The position numbers and the translations under genes are program-made. The notes beneath the pieces are model-generated. The model saw nothing but the letters and a program-made list of their open reading frames with translations, was not told the origin of the DNA and searched no databases. 64,000 nucleotides of DNA from Ianthella basta (Eukaryota; Porifera; Demospongiae; Verongiida; Ianthellidae), in NCBI GenBank assembly GCA_964019415.1, contig OZ025871.1, positions 12,184,936 through 12,248,935 of the forward strand. Reading direction: 5' to 3'. The stretch's first letter is position 1; each line of letters starts with the position of its first letter. This document shows, in pieces, positions 48,650 through 64,000 of this stretch.

Positions 48650-48769
48650 GTGGGTGTGCACACATATACAAAATTCACGCACATACGTACGTACATACAC
48701 ACACATGTGGATGCATGCACACACACACTTGCATAAGTGCACATAAGGACATCCTTGTCACCGGGCAAC

Positions 48770-51495
48770 TACACGCTATACTCTACATGTGCACCAGATG
48801 TCCCCAGTGGTGACTCACACTACACGCTATACTCTACATGTACACCAGATGTCCCCAGTGGCGACTCACACTACACACTATACTCTACATGTGCACCAGA
48901 TGTCCCCAGTGGTGACTCACACTACACGCTATACTCTACATGTGCACCAGATGTCCCCAGTGGTGACTCACACTACACGCTATACTCTACATGTGCACCA
49001 GATGTCCCCAGTGGTGACTCACACTACACGCTATACTCTACATGTACACCAGATGTCCCCAGTGGTGACTCACACTACACGCTATACTCTACATGTACAC
49101 CAGATGTCCCCAGTGTTGACTCACACTACACGCTATACTCTACATGTGCACCAGATGTCCCCAGTGGTGACTCACACTACACGCTATACTCTACATGTAC
49201 ACCAGATGTCCCCAGTGGTGACTCACACTACACGCTATACTCTACATGTGCACCAGATGTCCCCAGTGGTGACTCACACTACACGCTATACTCTACATGT
49301 ACACCAGATGTCCTCAGTGGTGACTCACACTACGCGCTATACTCTACATGTACACCAGATGTCCCCAGTGGTGACTCACACTACACGCTATACTCTACAT
49401 GTGCACCAGATGTCCCCAGTGGTGACTCACACTACACGCTATACTCTACATGTGCACCAGATGTCCCCAGTGGTGACTCACACTACACGCTATACTCTAC
49501 ATGTGCACCAGATGTCCTCAGTGGTGACTCACACTACACGCTATACTCTACATGTGCACCAGATGTCCCCAGTGGTGACTCACACTACACGCTATACTCT
49601 ACATGTGCACCAGATGTCCCCAGTGGTGACTCACACTACACGCTATACTCTACATGTACACCAGATGTCCCCAGTGGTGACTCACACTACACGCTATACT
49701 CTACATGTGCACCAGATGTCCCCAGTGGTGACTCACACTACACGCTATACTCTACATGTACACCAGATGTCCCCAGTGGTGACTCACACTACACGCTATA
49801 CTCTACATGTGCACCAGATGTCCCCAGTGGTGACTCACACTACACGCTATACTCTACATGTGCACCAGATGTCCCCAGTGGTGACTCACACTACACGCTA
49901 TACTCTACATGTACACCAGATGTCCTCAGTGGTGACTCACACTACGCGCTATACTCTACATGTACACCAGATGTCCTCAGTGGTGACTCACACTACACGC
50001 TATACTCTACATGTACACCAGATGTCCCCAGTGGTGACTCACACTACACGCTATACTCTACATGTACACCAGATGTCCCCAGTGGTGACTCACACTACAC
50101 GCTATACTCTACATGTGCGCCAGATGTCCTCAGTGGTGACTCACACTACATGCTATACTCTACATGTGCGCCAGATGTCCCCAGTGGTGACTCACACTAC
50201 ACGCTATACTCTACATGTGCACCAGATGTCCCCAGTGGTGACTCACACTACACGCTATACTCTACATGTACACCAGATGTCCCCAGTGGTGACTCACACT
50301 ACACGCTATACTCTACATGTACACCAGATGTCCCCAGTGGTGACTCACACTACATGCTATACTCTACATGTGCACCAGATGTCCCCAGTGGTGACTCACA
50401 CTACACGCTATACTCTACATGTACACCAGATGTCCCCAGTGGTGACTCACACTACACGCTATACTCTACATGTGCACCAGATGTCCCCAGTGGTGACTCA
50501 CACTACACGCTATACTCTACATGTGCACCAGATGTCCCCAGTGGTGACTCACACTACACGCTATACTCTACACGTGCACCAGATGTCCCCAGTGGTGACT
50601 CACACTACACGCTATACTCTACATGTGCACCAGATGTCCCCAGTGGTGACTCACACTACACGCTATACTCTACATGTACACCAGATGTTCCCAGTGGTGA
50701 CTCACACTACACGCTATACTCTACATGTGCACCAGATGTCCCCAATGGTGACTCACACTACACGCTATACTCTACATGTGCACCAGATGTCCCCAGTGGT
50801 GACTCACACTACACGCTATACTCTACATGTACACCAGATGTCCCCAGTGGTGACTCACACTACACGCTGTACTCTACATGTACACCAGATGTCCCCAGTG
50901 GTGACTCACACTACACGCTATACTCTACATGTACACCAGATGTCCCCAGTGGTGACTCACACTACACGCTATACTCTACATGTGCACCAGATGTCCCCAG
51001 TGGTGACTCACACTACACGCTATACTCTACATGTACACCAGATGTTCCCAGTGGTGACTCACACTACACGCTATACTCTACATGTACACCAGATGTCCCC
51101 AGTGGTGACTCACACTACACGCTGTACTCTACATGTACACCAGATGTCCCCAGTGGTGACTCACACTACACGCTATACTCTACATGTGCACCAGATGTCC
51201 CCAGTGGTGACTCACACTACACGCTATACTCTACACGTACACCAGATGTCCCCAGTGGTGACTCACACTACACGCTATACTCTACATGTACACCAGATGT
51301 CCCCAGTGGTGACTCACACTACACGCTATACTCTACATGTGCACCAGATGTCCCCAGTGGTGACTCACACTACACGCTATACTCTACATGTACACCAGAT
51401 GTCCCCAGTGGTGACTCACACTACACGCTATACTCTACATGTACACCAGATGTCCCCAGTGGTGACTCACACTACACACTATACTCTACATGTAC
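48770..51495. repeat. 51-bp minisatellite, about 53 copies
   Basis: Unit of 51 bp built from CACTACACGCTATACTCTAC, ATGTGCACCAGATGTCCCC and AGTGGTGACTCA. Variants are mostly at CpG or former CpG sites (ACACGCTA/ACATGCTA/ACACACTA; ATGTGCACC/ATGTACACC/ATGTGCGCC). The length is a multiple of 3, so two plus-strand frames stay open for over 900 codons each. Substitutions change and conserve residues without bias in both frames, there is no start context and no splice link, so I do not call a protein. It lies between an ST13-like exon and RPA2 exons, probably in introns. Confidence 0.96.
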
Positions 51496-54744: not shown

Positions 54745-55179
54745 GTGACATGCCTATTTCAAATGAGCAGTGGCGTGTGGTTGTAGGACTGTGGGTTGCC
54801 CGCATTCAGCAGACTCTCATCATCAGGAGAGGAGTGAAGAGGTCACCGTCCAGTCAGGAGGGGGCACCTTGTCCACTCGGCCAACCACACAGCGGAGAGA
54901 AGAAATGCATGGTGAAGAAGAAAGGGAGAAAGAAACCAAAAAATGACTCTTTTGGTGACTCAGCTATCTCAACTGATGAATTCTATAATGGCTTGATTGC
55001 TCTTGCCATGATTGTGAGCTGCTTAGGAAGAAATAAGTGTAAAGACGGCTCATACAGGAATCCTGTAGGCCCATTGCTGGAAATGTTAGGGGGCAATGGC
55101 TTAGGTGCACTGGTTGTCATAGCAATCCTCCTCCTCCGAAGTGGCGATGTGGAAACAAACCCTGGTCCTGTAGTGACAG
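54745..55179 (+). CDS. NLR-like gene, leader exon with 2A motif (exon A)
   Basis: Starts after TTTGTTTCCACACAG and ends ACAG|GTGGGT; 435 bp, phase 1 at both ends. A Met codon lies six bases inside (54750, MPISNEQWRVVVGLW), probably the translation start unless an upstream exon exists. The middle is basic (KKKGRKKPKN), then comes an acidic stretch (DSAISTDEFYNG), two hydrophobic stretches (LIALAMIVSCLG and GALVVIAILLLRSG), and DVETNPGP. The 2A motif makes the ribosome skip the Gly-Pro bond, releasing the upstream part. In sea-urchin NLRs such 2A-like leaders are known to double as signal sequences; the hydrophobic run here fits that. After the motif only VVT and a split Gly codon precede the splice to a DEATH exon. 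Confidence 0.8.
55146..55169 (+). other. 2A ribosome-skipping motif 1 (DVETNPGP)
   Basis: Perfect match to the D-[VI]-E-x-N-P-G-P core, in frame, immediately after the hydrophobic run VVIAILLLRSG. The predicted break is between Gly and the last Pro. Four codons later the exon is spliced. Confidence 0.9.
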
Positions 55180-55419
55180 GTGGGTGGTTGTATTTAGTGA
55201 ACAATTTAAATGAGTCAAGCACTTATTGCACAGTAGTACAGGTCATGTTAGCAGTCACTAACACACTGGCTGGCCATGGGTTACTGGCTAGGCTGAAATC
55301 TTTGACAAGGCTAACTGCTTGTCAGTGCACATACCAAGGAGTGGATCTGGCTGCTGAGGGTGGCAGGGTGAAGGATGGGGTTTGCAATGCTGTGTTTGTA
55401 GGGTGAACATCTTCTCAGA

Positions 55420-55610
55420 TATTCTAATGTGAACAATCTCATGCAATACCACCTCTCTATTCTGGAGACATGTGGGATGTTTTGGACAGGTTCAAATGTC
55501 CTGATTACAGAGGTGTCTTTATTTCAGAGGTAGCTGTTACATACCTCTATGTAGCTGGAACAGCAGGCATTGTCTTCGTTAAAGAGGTGTCCTTACATAC
55601 ATCATTGTGT
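55420..55610. repeat. two diverged copies of the intronic 79-bp repeat family
   Basis: Contains TTTATTTCAGAGGTAG, CCTCTATGTAGCTGG and GGCATTGTCTTCGTTA, the same parts as the 61.3-62.5 kb minisatellite but only about two units long. It lies in the same place relative to the 2A exon as the expanded array does relative to the third 2A exon. Confidence 0.75.
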
Positions 55611-56246
55611 TCCTTTTGAGAGGCTCCATTCGTAATAGCCACGTGCACTACTATATCTACAGTAGCTAGTTGAAGTGCTTTTTGTCTAAGAGCCCTTTGG
55701 TGTAGGCTTGTAGGGTCTCCCACACACCAGTGTAGGAGGTGGGTGGGGCTTGTGGGTAACCTAATGCAATCAAGGGTGGTCTGTTGTTTACACTGTGATC
55801 ATTAGTCCTTGCTGTGTTGCTACACAATCACCTCCTGATTTGAACAGCTTCCCATTTCAAGGCAGTGTGTCATGTGCTGTTCTGTTGTGACTAGTCTCCT
55901 GTACATAGTTTCATGTCAGTTCTCTCACTATGCCAGACAATACTTAGCTACTGAGTCTCCACTGAAAGTAGCTAGGTACAGCTTGTAAACGTAGCTGCAG
56001 TGCATACAGCCTAATCATGTGTGTGGTATTGTAAAATACAGAGAAGGGACTCAGGAAGTAATTGGATGCAGTTATGGGAAATTGGGGACACTGAAAGTAA
56101 ACAAAAATAGCTAGTGCTGTCACTACCTGTCACCATCACGTGGTGTGACTGGAGATAGTATTTAATGTGCCATTGTAATGATAAGGTTTTACTAACTGTA
56201 CGTACCATCGTTGCCCAACATATCTTGCCATCCTGTATTTCTTCAG

Positions 56247-56621
56247 GTGCTCACACTCTCCTCTACATCAGCTCCAAGCCCACAGTGGCTGAGCTGGACG
56301 AGTTCATAGTACAATCTATCACTGATCAGTGGGAACAAGTGATGTTTCATTTCGGGGTAGAGTCCCTTGTAATAAACATATTGGAAGGGGATAACCCTGG
56401 TCAATCTCAGGAGGCGAGCCAAAGAGTTCTCAGCAGTTGGCTGAATGCCAAACCTGGTATGGGTGAGGCTGAGAGGTCTTGGCACTCTGTTTTACAGGCA
56501 CCGGAGACTAGTGGGTTAGAGTCACCAGAAAAAGGCAGCCACAGACAGCTAGGAGATAAACTGAAGACAGAACATTTTGGTGAGAGTTCTGAAGGACCAG
56601 ATTCAGAGCCTACCTTTGCAG
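56247..56621 (+). CDS. NLR-like gene, DEATH-fold exon 1 (exon B)
   Basis: 375 bp between TTTCTTCAG and GCAG|GTGTGT, phase 1-1, 125 codons. It begins AHTLLYISSKPTVAEL and contains ITDQWEQVMFHFG, INILEGDNPGQSQEAS, RVLSSWLNA and SHRQLGDKLKTEHFG. The six-helix DEATH pattern is visible: a W in helix 2 (DQWEQV), the D-N-P-G-Q turn, the R-V-L-x-x-W helix, and a last helix with L-x-D-K-L. DEATH domains bind other DEATH domains in signalling assemblies. Compared with exon D it has a small insertion (GLESPEKG). The exon after it should be a CARD, but that one is deleted here. Confidence 0.8.
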
Positions 56622-56837
56622 GTGTGTGTGCAGCTGGGTTGAGTAGGGATAGTATTATTGTCACAGACATGCATTTTTGCGGGTTTGTCAACTGCATACT
56701 GGTGCATATTGTAGCCCCCCTGGGTTTGTACACATCAGTGACCTGCTCAAAGTGGGTGGAGGGTGGTCCTACGTACAGTGTGCATGAGATATGTGATGGG
56801 TTTGTGTGACATGACTCTTTAATTTCTTTCCATGCAG

Positions 56838-56850
56838 TGTGTATGTGTTT
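56838..56850 (+). other. scar of a deleted CARD exon
   Basis: The intron sequence before the CARD exons at 59307 and 63054 (TGACTC or TGACAGTTC then CTTTCCGTGCAG or CTTTCCATGCAG) is present here as TTTCTTTCCATGCAG, ending at 56837. Directly after it comes GTGT-rich sequence like that found after the CARD exons. The CARD exon itself is missing. Confidence 0.7.
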
Positions 56851-57367
56851 GACTGTGTGAATTTGTGTGCATGCATGTGTGTGTGATGGGTAGGCCTTAG
56901 TGTGTTGCTGCTGTATGCTGTCAATCCTGTCGTTAGGGGCTTCCCCATCAAGATTTGTGTCACATGCTGTTCTGTTCTTACTAGTTTCTTGTATGCACAA
57001 ATAATATAGCTGAGTTGTCAGTCAGTATGCCACAGTGCACTGCATTAGTCACCACGGGAACCATACTAGCTGATGTACAGTGCATGCAGTAAATGTATGC
57101 AGTATTGTCAATTGTGTCAATTGATTGGAGAATGAATATGATTCAGATGGTGATGATAAATTTGTCTTAGTGCACCAGTTGTCCCTGTGTTTGTGGTGTG
57201 AGACTGTTTTCAGTTGAGGATGCTACTCAAGTGGAATTGTGATGTACATACACATCTCTCTGTCACCATTGTGGGGTGTGACTGGGCTGAGTGGTAGACT
57301 GTGCTAGTAATGATGAGTGAACTACCTTCTTTTACTCTATCCTGCCATCCTGCATGTCCTTCCTCAG

Positions 57368-57586
57368 GTGCTCATGCCCTCCTCAACATCAGCTCCAAGC
57401 CCACACTGGCTGAGCTGGATGAGTTCAAAGTACGATCCATCACTGATGGATGGGAACAAGTATTGCTTCACCTAGGCCCATTGCTGGAGGTGTTAGGAGG
57501 CAACGGCTTAGGTGCATTGGTTGTCATAGCAATCCTCCTCCTCCGAAATGAAGATTTGGAAACAAACCCTGGTCCTGTGAAGAGAG
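57368..57586 (+). CDS. NLR-like gene, chimeric DEATH-fragment/2A exon (exon C)
   Basis: 219 bp between CCTTCCTCAG and GAGAG|GTGGGT, phase 1-1, 73 codons. The first half is the N-terminal third of the DEATH domain (AHALLNISSKPTLAELDEF to WEQVLLHL); at about 57470 it changes, in frame, to the end of the leader exon (GPLLEVLGGNGLGALVV to LLLRNEDLETNPGP). The junction shares a few bases (CCTAGGCCC against CTGTAGGCCC), as in non-homologous joining. The 2A core has Leu in the second place (D-L-E-T-N-P-G-P), an allowed variant, but the two residues before are Asn-Glu, not Ser-Gly. It is open throughout with both splice sites intact. Confidence 0.75.
57553..57576 (+). other. 2A motif 2 (DLETNPGP)
   Basis: In frame in exon C. 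Conservative V-to-L change at the second core position, and the SG before the motif is NE, so skipping could be less efficient than at motifs 1 and 3. Confidence 0.8.
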
Positions 57587-58750
57587 GTGGGTGGTTGTGT
57601 TTGGAATGTACCTGCCCGAGTAGTAGTAGACATGCAGGGTGACAGCTATGTGGCCCAAAATTGCACAGTAAAAAGTGGTTGGCCGATGCAGTGCCGAGGG
57701 TTCTGCACATTAGTGCTCTTGTTTCAGAGGTAGTTTGTACACGACACTATGTAGTTGAATTGAAGAGATGCCCTCATTTCATTGTGTCCTTTTTGAGAGG
57801 GTCTATTCATTGTAGCTATGTACACTAATGTTTTCATAGCTAGTTGAAGTGCTTTAAATGGCTTGTACAGGATTCAGAGCCTTTTGGTGTGGCCCTTGTT
57901 GTAGGGTCTCCCACACAAGGGAAGGCTGTGTAGCACACAGGAGGTGGGCAGGGCTTGTGGGTAACCTAATGTAAACAAGGTGGTAAACAAGGGGTATGCC
58001 CCTGTCATTACTTGGTCTGTTGTTTACATTGTGATCCTTAGGCCTTTCTGTGTTGCTACATGTCAGGTAAAGGTTACGTTCTACCGGTGTACAGACGCCC
58101 GTATACCTACTCGTATTGCAACCATACATTTCTCGTGTTACACCTGTGCATTCCCCCATATGTGCACTGTGCAAATGCCCTTAAGTGCTGCGTACATTCT
58201 CCAAATCACCCATTGGTTAACTACCTACGGACAGTTTAGGTGCCGCAGCCACAGTACTTTCACATCAACATGTATTGTGGCTTCAGCTACGGTGTGTACA
58301 TCGTCACAAGTGTAAAACAGTTCCAGTCATGTTTACCTCCTGATTTGAACAGCTTCCCTCTTGAAGGTAGTGTGTCATGTGCATGTTCTGTTGTGACTAG
58401 TCTCCTGTACATAGTTTCTTGTCAGCTCTCTCACTATGCCAGACAATACTTAGCTACTGAGTCTCCACTGAAAGTAGCTACAGCTTGTGAAAGTAGCTAC
58501 AGTGCATACTGCCTAATCATGTGTGTGGTATTGTAAAATACAGAGAAGGGACTAGGGAAGTAATCGGATGCAGTGATGGGAAATAGGGGACACTGATAGT
58601 AAACAAAGATAGCTAGTGCTGTCATTACCTGTCACCATCATGTGGTGTGACTAAACATAGTATTTAATGCATCATACTAATGATGGGGTTGTGTACTAAC
58701 TGTGCCTACCATCATCACCTAACATATCTTGCCATTCTGTATTTCCTCAG

Positions 58751-59104
58751 GTGCTCACACTCTCCTACACATCAGCTCCAAGCCCACACTGGCTGAGCTG
58801 GACACGTTCGTAGTGCACCTCATCACTGATGGATGGGAACAGGTATTGCTTCACCTCAGGGTGGAGTCCTCTGTAATAATAAACATGTTGAAAGGGGATA
58901 ACCCTGGTCAGTCTGAAGAGGCAAGCCAAAGAGTTCTCAGCAGTTGGCTGAATGCCGGTCCTGGTACAGGTGCTGCTGAGAGGACTTGGCGTTCTGTATT
59001 AGAGGCACTGGAGACAAGTGGCCACAGACAGCTAGCAGATAAACTGATAAGGGAGCACTTTAGTGAGAGTTCTGAAGGACCAGATTCAGAGCCTACCTCT
59101 GCAG
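58751..59104 (+). CDS. NLR-like gene, DEATH-fold exon 2 (exon D)
   Basis: 354 bp between TATTTCCTCAG and TGCAG|GTGTGT, phase 1-1, 118 codons. It reads AHTLLHISSKPTLAELDTF, ITDGWEQVLLHLRVE, MLKGDNPGQSEEASQR, VLSSWLNAGPGTGAAER, then TWRSVLEALETSGHRQLADK and ends with LIREHF. This is the most regular of the two full DEATH domains: ends with a canonical W-x-x-L-x-x-A-L and L-A-D-K-L. It is followed by an intact CARD-like exon. Confidence 0.85.
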
Positions 59105-59306
59105 GTGTGTATGCAGCTGGGTTGTGGAAGGAGTGTAATTGCTACAGACATTTTCGGAGGTTTTTGCAACTGCACACCAGTTGTGTATGTTAGTCCCCTG
59201 GGTTGGTACACATCAGTGACCTGCTCAAAGTGGGTGGAGGGTGGTCCTACAGTGAGCATGAGATGTTGGTTGGTTTGTGTGTCATGACTCTTCTCTTTCC
59301 GTGCAG

Positions 59307-59588
59307 CTGAAGAAGTTCTTAAAGAGTATCAAGAACAATTCATTAACCATGTGGAGGCTGATGTTGTTGCGTCTGATCTTCGATTCAGTGACATTATTGC
59401 ACAAGGCTGCCATAAACAAATCTTGTGGACTATTGGACGTATTCAGAGAAATAAGATTTTACATGACCAGATGATGACCAACTGCACCAGAGAGGTGTTA
59501 ACTGTTGTCTGTAGCTCATTCATTACTAAGGAAGGCTACCCAAGGATGAAAGAGCTGGGTGTAGCAATGAAGAAGAGCATGGTAGCAG
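59307..59588 (+). CDS. NLR-like gene, CARD-like exon 1 (exon E)
   Basis: 282 bp between TTTCCGTGCAG and GCAG|GTTTGC, phase 1-1, 94 codons. It reads AEEVLKEYQEQFINHVEA, SDLRFSDIIAQGCHKQI, RNKILHDQMMTNCTREVL and GYPRMKELGVAMKKSM. This follows the CARD layout: F-x-x-x-V-E-A-D, D-L-x-x-x-x-I-I-x-x, R-x-K-x-x-x-L-x, then a last helix after the G-Y-P turn. CARDs recruit CARD-bearing adaptors or caspases. It could also be classed only as a DEATH-fold relative; the family is diverged. A GT-rich tract follows in the intron (59590-59690). Confidence 0.7.
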
Positions 59589-59870
59589 GTTTGCACGTGT
59601 GTGTTTGTGTGTACGCGTGTGTATTCATGTGTGTGCATGTGTGTATGTGTTTGTGTGTATGTGTTTGTGTGTATTTGTGTGTGTGATGACTAGTCTTACT
59701 TTGTAGCTGCTGTACTGTCAATCTTGTTGTGAAGGGCTCCCCCCATTAAGGACTGTGTCACATGCTGTTTTGTTCTTACTAGTTTCTTGTCTATAATTTT
59801 GCTGAGTTGTCACTCACTTTGCCAGACTGCACTGAGTCACCACAGAAGTCATACTAGCTGCTGTCCTGTA

Positions 59871-60576
59871 TGGCCGGAAATTTGGCAGTGAATTTATTTT
59901 CGCAGATTGGTGTTTTTGAGAGCAATCCGCCAATATCTCTTTTGCTAAAATTAGTCAGCAATATTGCACAATCATAGTTTCCTGTATAAACTGGGTTGGA
60001 TGCGCTGGGCCTATAGGTTAATCATTGGCATAGAGTTCACAACTGACAGCTGCGTACGAGGACATTACATTTCCAAATGGTTAGTTTTGGACATGCAAGT
60101 TTGTAGGAGAAGAGCTGTCTAGACTTGTCAGCACAAGGAAGCCAAATGCAATACAAACGGCATCGCTGTGAAGACTGACGTTGATATCATTATTGGTAGC
60201 TTACTGTGGAAGATTGGCAGCCTGTTCTATGTTTCTGCATTGGATTGGTGTGACTGTGTGCTAAGTCACAGACAGCAAGCGAGCATCAGTAGATCTACCA
60301 TAAGGAGGCTTGGATTCTCCTTTGCATGTTGAAGAATTCTTGGTCTAGGGTAAGGATTAGAACGAAAATAGTCCAGATATTGTCAAACAGCAGCGTGTGC
60401 ACTCTGCAGCCACATTTCATCATCATTGCAATCTAGCTCTTGCCTGTTCCAGATTAGCCATTTCACTATGAATATCATTATAGCATAAGGCTTGCCCAAC
60501 CACCAAAGTAAATTCCGCTACATGCCATAATTTCATCAATTCACAAAAACAAATTCCAGCCCAAAATTTCCAGCCA
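59871..60576. mobile_element. 706-bp nonautonomous DNA transposon, TA target duplication
   Basis: Ends are inverted repeats of about 40 bp with mismatches: TGGCCGGAAATTTGGCAGTG on the left, and TTCCAGCCCAAAATTTCCAG then CCA on the right. TA flanks both ends (59869-59870 and 60577-60578). The paralogous intron near 57080 (CATACTAGCTGATGTACAG) has no insertion, which gives an empty site. There is no open frame of a transposase; the inside resembles nothing I recognise. Confidence 0.75.
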
Positions 60577-60878
60577 TATGGTATATACTGTAACAGTGTA
60601 TACAGCAAACGTATGTATTGTGGTATTGTGAAATGTGTTGATTGATTGGAGAGTGAATATGATGCAGCTAGTGATGAGAAATGTGCCTTAGTTCACCAGT
60701 TGTCCTGTGTTTGTGGTGTGAGACTGTTGTCTATTGAGGATACTCAAGTAAAACAGGGATACACATCTCTCTGCCACCATTGTGGGGTGTGACTGGGCTG
60801 GGTAGTAGACCGTGCTAGTAATGATGAGTGAATTACATTCTTTTACTTTATCTTGCCATTCTGTATGTCCTTCTTCAG

Positions 60879-61226
60879 GTGCTCGTGCCCTCCTCAACAT
60901 CAGCTCCAAGCCTACACTGGATGAGCTGGATGAGTTCATAGTACATCTCATCACAGATGGACGGAAACAAGTGGTGCTTCACCTTCAAAGTGACTCTTTT
61001 GGTGACTCAGCTATCACAACTGATGAATTCTATGATAGCTTGATTGCTCTTGCCACGATTGTGAGCTACTTAGGAAGAAATAAATGTAAAGGCGTCTCAT
61101 ACAGGAATCCTGCAGGCCCTTTGCTGGAAGTGTTAGAAGACAATGGTTTAAGTGCACTGGTTGTCATTGCGATTCTCCTCCTCCGAAGTGGTGATGTGGA
61201 AACAAACCCTGGTCCTGTGGAGAGAG
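60879..61226 (+). CDS. NLR-like gene, second chimeric DEATH-fragment/2A exon (exon F)
   Basis: 348 bp between TGTCCTTCTTCAG and GAGAG|GTGGGT, phase 1-1, 116 codons. It starts as a DEATH N-terminal third (ARALLNISSKPTLDELDEF, then GRKQVVLHL, lacking the helix-2 Trp) and changes at about 60987 to the leader exon at an earlier point than exon C does: DSFGDSAITTDEFYDSL, SYLGRNKCKG, then SALVVIAILLLRSGD and VETNPGP. So the two chimeras have different breakpoints. It is open throughout with both splice sites intact. Confidence 0.75.
61193..61216 (+). other. 2A motif 3 (DVETNPGP)
   Basis: Identical core to motif 1, in frame in exon F, after the same hydrophobic run (VVIAILLLRSG). Confidence 0.88.
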
Positions 61227-61308
61227 GTGGGTGGTTGTGTTTAGTGAACAGTTTACATGAGTCCTGCACTTACATTTGAACATCTTTGTATTGGATGCAT
61301 CTGGGTCA

Positions 61309-62515
61309 TTTTGTACCAGGAACAAGTGTCCTCATTAAAGAGGTGTCCTTATTTCAGAGGTAGTTCTGTACACAGCTGTATGTAGCTTGGAGAGTAGGCA
61401 CTGTCCTCATTAGAGAGGTGGCCTTATTTCAGAGGTAGTTTTGTACACATCTCTATGTACGTAGCTGGGACAGTAGGCACTGTCCTCATTAGAAAGGTGG
61501 CCTTATTTCAGAGGTAGATTTGCACACATCTCTATGTATGTAGCTGGGACAGTAGGCACTGTCCTCATTAGAAAGGTGGCCTTATTTCAGAGGTAGATTT
61601 GCACACATCTCTATGTACGTAGCTGGGACAGTAGGCACTGTCCTCATTAGAAAGGTGGCCTTATTTCAGAGGTAGATTTGCACACATCTCTATGTACGTA
61701 GCTGGGACAGTAGGCACAGTCCTCATTAGAAAGGTGGCCTTATTTCAGAGGTAGATTTGCACACATCTCTATGTATGTAGCTGGGACAGTAGGCACTGTC
61801 CTAATTAGAGAGGTGGCCTTATTTCAGAGGTAGTTTTGTACACATCTCTATGTACGTAGCCTGGACAGTAGGCACTGTCCTAATTAGAGAGGTGCCCTTA
61901 TTTCAAAGGCAGTTTTGTACACATCTCTATGTACGTAGCTGGGACAGTGGGCACTGTCCTCATTAGAAAGGTGACCTTATTTCAGAGGTAGTTTTGTACA
62001 CATCTCTATGTATGTAGCTGGGACAGTAGGCACTGTCCTCATTAGAGAGGTGCCCTTATTTCAGAGGTAGTTTTGCACACATCTCTATGTATGTAGCTGG
62101 GACAGTAGGCACTGTCCTCATTAGAGAAGTGCCCTTATTTCAGAGGTAGTTTTGTACACACCTCTATGTAGCTGGGACAGTAAGCACTGTCCTCATTAGA
62201 GAGGTGCCCTTATTTCAGAGGTAGTTTTGTACACACCTCTATGTAGCTGGGACAGTAGGCACTGTCCTCATTAGAGAGGTGCCCTTATTTCAGAGGTAGT
62301 TTTGTACACACCTCTATGTAGCTGGGACTGTAGGCACTGTCCTCATTAGAGAGGTGTCCTTATTTCAGAGGTAGTTTTGTACACATCTCTATATACGTAG
62401 CTGGGACAGAAGGCGCTGTCTTCATTAGAGAGGTGCCCTTAGTTCAGAGGTAGTTTTGTGCACGTCTCTATGTACGTAGCTGGGACGGTAGGCAATGTCC
62501 TCATTAGAGAGGTGG
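61309..62515. repeat. 75-79-bp intronic minisatellite, about 16 copies
   Basis: Unit: GTCCTCATTAGAAAGGTGGC, CTTATTTCAGAGGTAGATTT, GCACACATCTCTATGTACGT, AGCTGGGACAGTAGGCACT. Later copies lack 4 bases (ACGT or ATGT) and are 75 bp. CpG-type variation TATGTACGTAG/TATGTATGTAG is common. Homologous introns after the other 2A exons hold only one or two diverged units (55420-55610 and about 57720-57790), so the array expanded after the cassette duplication. Each unit carries TTATTTCAG, an acceptor-like motif. Confidence 0.95.
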
Positions 62516-63053
62516 CATGAATTCACGGTGTCTATAAGAGGGGCTCCATTGTAACATGTAGTTTGGTCACTAGCTACTAATTCAAATAGAACTTATAGCT
62601 ATATGCCCATTTGAATGGGATTTGGAGCCTTCTGCATATTGCATGGAGTAGCCCTGTAGCCCTATGTTTACGACTTATACTTATAAATCATGTGTAAGAG
62701 TGTATGATTGGACTTCACACAACAGAATGTTCAGTGTGCTTGTGTTGGGACACTGAGTCACTGTTGTGCAGGTAGGTAGCAGTGCTATATTTAAACATTT
62801 CTTCATTGGGGAGGGGACAAATTTGCAAGGTGGGCGAGATTATACTAAGCATAATGTACCACTGGGTAGGGCTATTGGATCACATACGTAACGTAAAGAA
62901 GGTGATATGCCTTTGTCATTACTGGTTGGTTGTGTGCTATATCTCTGGGTTGGTACCCATCAGTGACCTGCTCAAAGTGGGTGGAGGGTGGTCCTACAGT
63001 GAGCATGAGAGGTTGGCACATTTGTGTGTCATGACAGTTCTCTTTCCATGCAG
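62516..63053. other. intron with a deletion of the DEATH exon
   Basis: The stretch 62890-62930 (GGTGATATGCCTTTGTCATT) matches the intron before exon D (near 57995), and from 62943 (CTGGGTTGGTACCCATCAG) it matches the intron after exon D (59200). The DEATH exon and about 1.2 kb around it are missing between the two. Confidence 0.65.
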
Positions 63054-63335
63054 CTGAAGAAGTTCTTAGAATGTTTCGGAAACAATTCATTGACGATGTG
63101 GAGGCTAATGCTGTTGTCCATGATCTTCAATATCATGGTATTATTCCACAAGGCTGTCAGGTGCAAGTCTCAAGGGCTAGTGGTCGTAAACAGCAAAATC
63201 AAATCCTGCACACACAGCTGATGGTCAGCTGCACCAATCAGGCTTTGATTGATTCCTGTAACATATTCATTGCTGAGAAAGGCTATCCAAGGATGAAGGC
63301 ACTCGGCGAAGTGATAAAGAAGAGCCTGCAAGCAG
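63054..63335 (+). CDS. NLR-like gene, CARD-like exon 2 (exon G)
   Basis: 282 bp between TTTCCATGCAG and GCAG|GTGCAG (an alternative donor 6 bp on also keeps the frame), phase 1-1, 94 codons like exon E. It reads AEEVLRMFRKQFIDDVEA, HDLQYHGIIPQGCQ, NQILHTQLMVSCTNQAL, NIFIAEKGYPRMKALGEVI. About half the residues match exon E; the charged surface differs strongly (K/R-rich RMFRKQ, VSRASGRKQQ), which may change its partner. It leads into the pre-NACHT exon. Confidence 0.72.
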
Positions 63336-63783
63336 GTGCAGGTGTGTGTGCTTCTGTGTACACGTGTGCGCTCTTGTGCGCATGTGTGTGTGATGCTTAG
63401 GCCTTACTGTGTACTGTACTGTCTATCCTGTTGTGAAGCCCCAAACAAAGCACTATTACTACTATCCTTAATGATTAAGTTTTTTAAGATTTTCTAGTAA
63501 AGAATTTCTAGTAGCTTCATGGGACTAGCTAGCTAGACATTTGGGTCCATGTAGCTGTATAAGGAAATTAGGAATGCAGAGCAAACTTCACGGAAATGTG
63601 GTTCATCGTGGTGTTGAGTTTACTGTTGCTTGTTTCTATGCTTATTCTGCTGGCCATTCCTAAATCCCTCTTAATCCTAAAAGAATTTTTATACACTAGT
63701 TTAAGTTTGTAATTTGTGTTATCATTACTTGTTGAGTTGATTGTATTCTTGTCTCTCTTTCAACCATTGTACTCTGCATGTAG

Positions 63784-64000
63784 TTGAGGAAGGTGGGGGA
63801 GGAGGAGAAAGAGAGCAGGTAGACTCCTTTTCCAGTTGCCTTCTGGAATTCTATATGAACATGAAGGTTGTCGAGGATAAGTGGCTTCCTGCCGATCAAT
63901 CTTTACCATTTGTTAACTTAGCCCTTGCTCGTTTCCATTTAAGTGCCCAGCATGCCCAAGAGATGTTTGTTGAAGCCGTGAGGGAAGGTGTCGATAATGT
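63784..64000 (+). CDS. NLR-like gene, pre-NACHT exon (exon H), cut by the window edge
   Basis: Acceptor CTCTGCATGTAG, phase 1 start. The reading opens with a Gly/Glu linker (VEEGGGGGEREQ), then FYMNMKVVEDKWLP, SLPFVNLALARFHLSAQ and AQEMFVEAVREGVDNV. In invertebrate NLRs a similar segment (K-W-P-P-x-x-x-x-x-F-I-N-L-A, then a helix, then a G-x-I/V-D-x-I turn) comes before the NACHT nucleotide-binding domain. So I expect a NACHT domain and perhaps leucine-rich repeats outside the window. The Walker A motif is not in the window, so the NLR assignment is inference. Confidence 0.65.

Follow-up and report, generated by a model that had tools for sequence, protein, structure and literature searches.

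Organization of the locus

The gene considered here lies at positions 54745 to 64000 of a 64,000-nucleotide stretch of the genome of the sponge Ianthella basta (assembly GCA_964019415.1, contig OZ025871.1, positions 12,184,936 to 12,248,935 of the forward strand). This whole stretch is referred to as the window, and its first letter is position 1 for all window coordinates. Eight exons on the + strand, A to H, encode death-fold modules and the start of a NACHT domain, and three of them close with a 2A (StopGo) motif. At such a motif the growing chain is released at NPG and synthesis resumes at Pro. From comparison of this gene with its relatives, we consider it probable that the locus represents a single member of a large NLR-like family, with an mRNA that is translated as a StopGo polyprotein.

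Exon A (54745-55179) is classified here as a type I 2A exon, which comprises a leader of ~100 amino acids, a hydrophobic stretch, and a 2A core, and it is delimited by its AG/GT borders, its phase (1-1), and its relatives. The likely start codon (54750-54752) falls five bases past the acceptor and is conserved in type I relatives. The hydrophobic stretch GLGALVVIAILLL (55098-55136; 13 residues, mean Kyte-Doolittle value 3.0) is followed by the core DVETNPGP (55146-55169). Exon B (56247-56621) is assigned as DEATH1 on the basis of homology to exon D and is without a Pfam match of its own. Exon C (57368-57586) is a short type II 2A exon, in which the first ~35 amino acids of a DEATH exon are joined to a hydrophobic stretch and the core DLETNPGP (57553-57576). 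DEATH2 is encoded by exon D (58751-59104), for which the Pfam Death match is weak (15.4 bits against a cut-off of 22.6); a paralogous DEATH exon (L037:5797-6141) clears the cut-off with 24.6 bits. Exon E (59307-59588), CARD1, is predicted to adopt a CARD fold. Exon F (60879-61226) is again of type II and is made up of a half-DEATH segment, a linker, a hydrophobic stretch, and the core DVETNPGP (61193-61216), the site closest to NACHT. Exon G (63054-63335) is assigned as CARD2 from its 49% identity to exon E and from its borders, and exon H encodes the NACHT domain (PF05729, E 5.2e-21), with its start in the window (63784-64000) and its remainder beyond it (L031 1720-3383).

The gene is NLR-like in the NACHT domain of exon H and in its N-terminal modules, with CARD represented by exon E and Death by the paralog, the Death exons of the window itself being below threshold. 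In Pfam, no CARD match was obtained for E, G, or other members of CARD set A2, and sequence searches of the PDB with exon D and with a CARD profile gave no useful match. For a possible folded domain in the type II exon, an AlphaFold2 model reached a predicted local distance difference test (pLDDT) score of 43.6. Downstream of NACHT, where leucine-rich repeats would be expected in an NLR, the single open frame that was scanned gave no Pfam match.

Exons A to G all have AG at the 5' border and GT at the 3' border, a length that is a multiple of 3, and phase 1-1 throughout, and the joined A-H frame, read from the ATG at 54750 and extended into the 3' flank, runs for 1317 residues before the first stop. 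These borders and the single open frame agree with the exon set proposed in an earlier note on this DNA. The matching phase to which that note pointed is also correct but holds for any subset of the exons; as A to G are all symmetric, matching phase alone is not evidence that A to H are joined. Along the joined frame, the 2A sites fall before DEATH1, at the DEATH1/DEATH2 boundary, and at the CARD1/CARD2 boundary, with NACHT after them.

The three 2A sites

A six-frame scan of the window finds NPGP at 55158, 57565, and 61205 only, all on the + strand, and so bears out the three in-frame motifs described in the earlier note as closing exons A, C, and F. The cores are not equivalent, however. Those of A and F fit the consensus (D/G/C/N)(V/I)ExNPGP (PMC12846837) and have the L-rich upstream context ending in (A/S/C)G, here LLLRSG, whereas C fits neither, since DLETNPGP follows NE (LLLRNE) instead of SG in the tract LLLRNEDLETNPGP. 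Where the viral StopGo survey that is the source of the consensus names functional variants, Leu at position 13 is not among them, and a strong preference for Gly ahead of Asp is described (PMC12846837). With Leu at position 13 and the Gly before Asp replaced, site C is probably weak or dead. Of the counterparts of C, the one at 8632 kb also has Leu and the one at 8752 kb has an intact core. The A and F tracts end in ILLLRSGDVETNPGP, which differs at one of 15 residues from the tract of the sea-urchin SpNLR2A6 (ILLMRSG...), obtained by translating the primer printed in PMC4981915, where SpNLR2A6 is given as ~80% active in vitro. A and F are probably the sole efficient skippers among the three sites.

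Two classes of 2A exon in the genome

Exact sites coding for GDVETNPGP number 38 in the 209-Mb genome, against 0 for the reversed pattern. When 30 of the 38 were sorted by eye, 6 belonged to a non-long terminal repeat (non-LTR) retrotransposon, 4 were short leaders, and 20 were NLR-type exons. A chance motif was rejected as an explanation on these counts and on the mostly intact cores of the type I exons chosen blindly (see below).

Two classes are distinguished among the NLR-type exons. Type I exons, as exemplified by exon A, carry AG at the acceptor in every one of 30 rows, which represent 26 distinct exons, and have an ATG five bases on, in a set for which the search pattern itself demanded the start-codon region. 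In separate readings of such exons, L028 has lost the ATG, and L030 and L055 are in frame over their 3' part only. Type II exons, as exemplified by C and F, open with the N-terminal ~35 residues of a DEATH exon and share the acceptor of DEATH exons. The acceptor AG is present in all 12 of the type II exons that could be placed, out of 13 found, and the 13th (L057) shows the same border by inspection; L040 has lost most of its DEATH part. Upstream in-frame ATGs of the 12 placed exons are of the form MMSEL in 5 and LMSG/LMNG in 4, with none in the other 3. MMSEL is found in front of a DEATH exon of the usual kind (P0175) as well and so looks like intron sequence. The shared DEATH acceptor and the lack of a conserved start codon make the type II exons, C and F included, look like internal exons.

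Short leaders of ~36 amino acids are found in L017-L019 (C4 9.62-9.67 Mb, around 1501-1526), running from Met to LLLQS/LLLRS-GDVETNPGP, and in form they come nearer to the leaders of sea-urchin NLRs; L018 and L019 continue with VERG and then gtaagt, as type I exons do. Another short 2A leader is present in L002 (C2, around 1501-1526). The non-LTR retrotransposon copies (L001, L003, L004, L005, L006, and L029, around 1501-1526) have an N-terminal 2A, LLLVLCGDVETNPGP, and then an endonuclease-like frame, as judged by eye, and the sequence upstream of their 2A is unlike that of the NLR 2A exons.

Conservation of the 2A tracts

A query ending before the 2A was used to pick 40 of 99 type I matches without knowledge of the core, and 38 of these 40 carry a consensus core, the outliers being L075 and L076; 20 of the 40 come from a single array (C4 4-8 Mb) and are therefore not independent. 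One of the 38, L072, has an in-frame stop three codons upstream. Synonymous variation is seen at 7 of the 8 core codons of the type I set, and the residues vary only between V and I at position 13 and among T, A, and S at position 15, save for one N at position 12 and the two outliers. Judged from its codons, the 2A core is conserved as peptide, not as DNA. A database search returned 56 matches, of which 54 have a 2A tail (2 DEATH exons were dropped) and 47 of the 54 are intact, although a search of this kind relies on shared words and may favor intact cores.

Among the 26 distinct type I exons, the median pairwise ratio of nonsynonymous to synonymous substitution rates (dN/dS) is 0.48 for the whole exon and 0.29 for the hydrophobic and 2A part. 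For 9 type II exons, the ratio of nonsynonymous to synonymous differences (pN/pS) is 0.47 (0.31-0.71) for the whole and 0.16 (95% interval, 0.07-0.31) for the hydrophobic and 2A part, and for the hydrophobic part alone, with the core left out, it is 0.22 (10 exons). The minimum thus falls in the same part of both exon types. DEATH and CARD exons have a dN/dS near 0.5 (17 and 8 exons, the DEATH set including a few type II exons). Both substitution rates could be reduced by gene conversion among the copies. The ratios show selection on the 2A tracts.

Gene order and the last-site pattern

Exons were grouped before each NACHT, and groups were split at gaps of >30 kb. The input consisted of 49 of the 99 matches to type I (those that were only partial or lay in the C4 4-8 Mb array were excluded), 13 type II exons, 61 DEATH entries from 150 matches, 74 of 78 NACHT matches, and, for CARD, 19 of 150 entries plus 2 from flanking DNA. 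As only the best candidates are listed, the exon maps are lower bounds. Among the matches listed, type I - DEATH - NACHT is the most frequent order in groups with a single 2A (8 of 21). All 13 type II exons found lie in seven groups on C4, each of which opens with a type I exon, an arrangement with a chance of 0.003 under random placing. Six of the seven groups close with a listed NACHT; for the group at 12304 kb, none is listed or present in the DNA examined. The window gene is ordered I-DEATH-II-DEATH-CARD-II-CARD-NACHT, a relative at 8600-8590 kb is ordered I-DEATH-CARD-II-CARD-NACHT, and in a gene at C4:8911-8932 kb a single NACHT is preceded by five 2A exons, of which four fit the consensus, the intervening DNA having been read and containing no second NACHT.

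In two related genes, an extra CARD-like exon (L098 760-1056 and L103 1816-2106; identified by eye and without a Pfam match) lies downstream of the other death-fold exons, and in one of these genes it comes after the last CARD and ahead of NACHT; it was not found in the window gene. On C95, three NACHT exons duplicate three of C4 (12.12-12.17 Mb) with identical scores and in reversed order, and C95 may therefore be a second haplotype copy. The best of 8 matches to an Antp homeodomain is 47% identical, so that a gene of the Hox class was not seen, as would suit a sponge without identifying one.

When the sites are placed into the context of gene order, a further pattern is apparent. In the seven genes with type II exons, the NACHT-proximal 2A is intact in 7 of 7, compared with 7 of 16 upstream sites (p 0.019 by the Fisher test and 0.017 when sites are placed at random within genes). 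The contrast becomes 7/8 versus 7/17 (p 0.042) with the 8983-kb gene added, 8/9 versus 8/18 (p 0.042) with C21, in which both sites are intact, added too, and 14/15 versus 16/26 (p 0.033) with all other multi-2A groups added, each of which may be several genes. These other groups are seven in number (C21; C4:11388 and 11869 kb; C5; three on C2) and were kept out of the main count, most of them because they span at least 14 kb and may hold an unlisted NACHT; their cores are all within consensus, that of L072 lying behind a stop. Across the 8 multi-2A genes, 11 of 25 2A exons are off consensus, and 6 of these 11 cores are changed at position 18, the Gly of NPG-P, to D (3), S (2), or N (1). The last-site pattern fits the view that freeing the NACHT receptor is required while the upstream grouping is free to change. 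The exons with the Gly lesion (L035 2877-3122, L036 186-611, L037 592-1017, L049, L050, and L051) keep the hydrophobic tract; L035 has a second core change and L051 an in-frame stop.

A putative cellular StopGo polyprotein

Of the two views offered in the earlier note, a polyprotein released in pieces by skipping and three 2A exons used as alternative first exons, the StopGo polyprotein appears from these comparisons to be the better. It probably has two good skip sites, not three, and the clean DEATH and DEATH-CARD products that were envisaged are not expected from the exons, as the upstream pieces end in a half-DEATH segment and a hydrophobic tail. With A to H presumably joined in one mRNA and exon A presumably the first coding exon, ribosomes would start at the ATG of exon A and release a leader of 139 amino acids at A. 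DEATH1 to CARD1 would then be read largely as a single piece, site C being weak, and released at F, after which Pro-CARD2-NACHT and what follows would be made as a separate receptor. C-terminal membrane segments are handled by the tail-anchor route, and as the hydrophobic stretch (GLGALVVIAILLL in exon A) lies ~10 residues from the end of the released upstream pieces, these could be tail-anchored membrane proteins, which may act as death-fold adaptors. Where skipping fails, the stretch would leave the ribosome and the downstream receptor would be tied to the membrane. In this reading, selection would retain the NACHT-proximal site, while upstream sites would be gained and lost and in this way fix the grouping of the death-fold modules.

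Extending this to the family as a whole is a tentative step, which we regard as slightly more apt to fail than to hold. The receptors would be built as StopGo polyproteins from 2A-ended exon cassettes, a single gene having as many as five 2A exons. A free NACHT receptor and death-fold adaptors with a tail anchor would be produced in a fixed proportion. The NACHT-adjacent cut would be kept by selection, and upstream cuts would be gained or lost, often via the Gly of NPG-P, so as to regroup the adaptors.

Several observations speak against a polyprotein. The gene is a prediction from genomic sequence, and the symmetry of exons A to G places every splice combination in frame. Type I exons with their own ATG are repeated inside several genes and could be extra promoters. 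One of the three window sites, C, is off consensus, and of the two 2A cores in the gene at C4:8983-8968 neither is intact, not even the last. The last-site pattern was noticed afterwards and among related genes, and we treat it as a hypothesis only. Finally, 8 of the 9 type II exons behind the pN/pS values had been detected through an exact match to the core, a selection that biases pN downward within the core itself.

Other explanations can be considered against the same evidence. It is possible, if doubtful, that the 2A tracts are mainly membrane signals, with skipping setting the membrane-bound share or the amount of receptor and the upstream pieces being by-products, an arrangement that is compatible with a polyprotein. 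The hydrophobic stretch stands right before each core and is under strong selection, the final site is the one retained, and SpNLR2A6 is described as performing both jobs in cells (PMC4981915); left unexplained are the DEATH and CARD exons upstream of the last 2A, with their dN/dS near 0.5.

Splicing of the 2A exons as internal cassettes, mostly one per mRNA and with the full polyprotein rare, is an unlikely alternative. Exon A might, for example, be spliced to B or to D, C and F being left out or taken in place of a DEATH exon. The multiple-of-3 lengths and 1-1 phase of exons A to G would permit this, and the acceptor and first ~35 amino acids that type II exons share with DEATH exons would suit mutually exclusive use. 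Cassette splicing does not, however, predict that the NACHT-proximal 2A is intact or that internal exons are under selection in their 2A tract, and any type II exon included in an mRNA would still need preceding coding sequence.

That the inner 2A exons are relics, copies of a leader exon brought into introns by recombination and mostly decaying unused, is improbable. The 11 of 25 off-consensus exons and the in-frame stop of L051 are as expected of decay, but the type II pN/pS (0.47 for the whole exon, with an upper bound of 0.71, and 0.16 for the hydrophobic and 2A part) and the final site intact in 7 of 7 are not.

Least probable is that A, C, and F each open a transcript of their own with a single 2A leader at a time. 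Although several genes contain repeated type I exons that bring an ATG of their own, and in-frame ATGs (MMSEL...) lie upstream of C and F, this was rejected for C and F on the DEATH acceptor kept in 12/12 placed type II exons, on upstream ATGs of two unrelated kinds (one of which also precedes the ordinary DEATH exon P0175) or none, and on the position of type II exons, as none of the 13 found precedes the earliest type I exon in its gene.

Relation to known systems

The StopGo polyprotein favored here can be compared with three known systems. According to PMC12846837, natural StopGo is for the most part restricted to viruses and its motifs are very rare in cellular genes. N-terminal 2A leaders of NLRs are known, the cellular cases that we found described being those of the sea urchin. 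In the account of the latter (PMC4981915), the 2A is active in vitro and in cells, and control of membrane location or amount by skipping is proposed. The sponge gene resembles the sea-urchin NLRs in its nearly identical tract ILLMRSGDVETNPGP, in its death-fold and NACHT class, and in a hydrophobic stretch doubling as a signal. The sea-urchin leader, however, is 26 amino acids long and N-terminal, occurring 'not as internal features' (PMC4981915), whereas the sponge leader has 139 amino acids and is followed by additional 2A exons that are placed within the coding sequence, between one death-fold module and another. Exon A, with its ATG and 2A, corresponds to the N-terminal arrangement if it is indeed the first exon; C and F are internal by their acceptor and by their order.

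Similarly, the polyproteins of supergroup 4 picornaviruses have several StopGo sites per frame, with the number of sites differing among relatives and the activity among sites (PMC11512398); unlike these, the sponge sites are cellular and sit in exon-bounded cassettes of an immune-receptor family. Large DEATH/CARD-NACHT expansions like the one seen here are reported for the NLR repertoires of Dysidea avara (PMC12909245) and of Amphimedon, cited there, and putative membrane-bound NLRs are among those reported (PMC12909245). The strings 'NPGP' and 'ribosom' are absent from the main text of the Dysidea avara paper, and in the open-access literature (subscription papers being outside its scope) we found neither internal or repeated 2A in NLRs nor 2A in sponge NLRs. 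If correct, the polyprotein would be a native one in an animal immune system, with one message giving receptor and adaptors in a set ratio, and the 25 exons in 8 genes would offer a natural series of intact and broken sites for studying why cells keep or drop the skip.

Repeats in the window

A minisatellite with a 79-bp unit (~15 copies) lies on the + strand within the F-G intron (61327-62516). Upstream of the gene, a tandem array of a 51-bp unit (48768-51493, 53 copies) is open in two frames (938 and 918 codons), which is a product of the repeat length and no evidence of a gene. Further upstream, a 38.7-kb array of a 35-bp unit, with ~1120 copies, occupies 6844-45543, and repeat-born open frames like those of this array recur downstream in L032.

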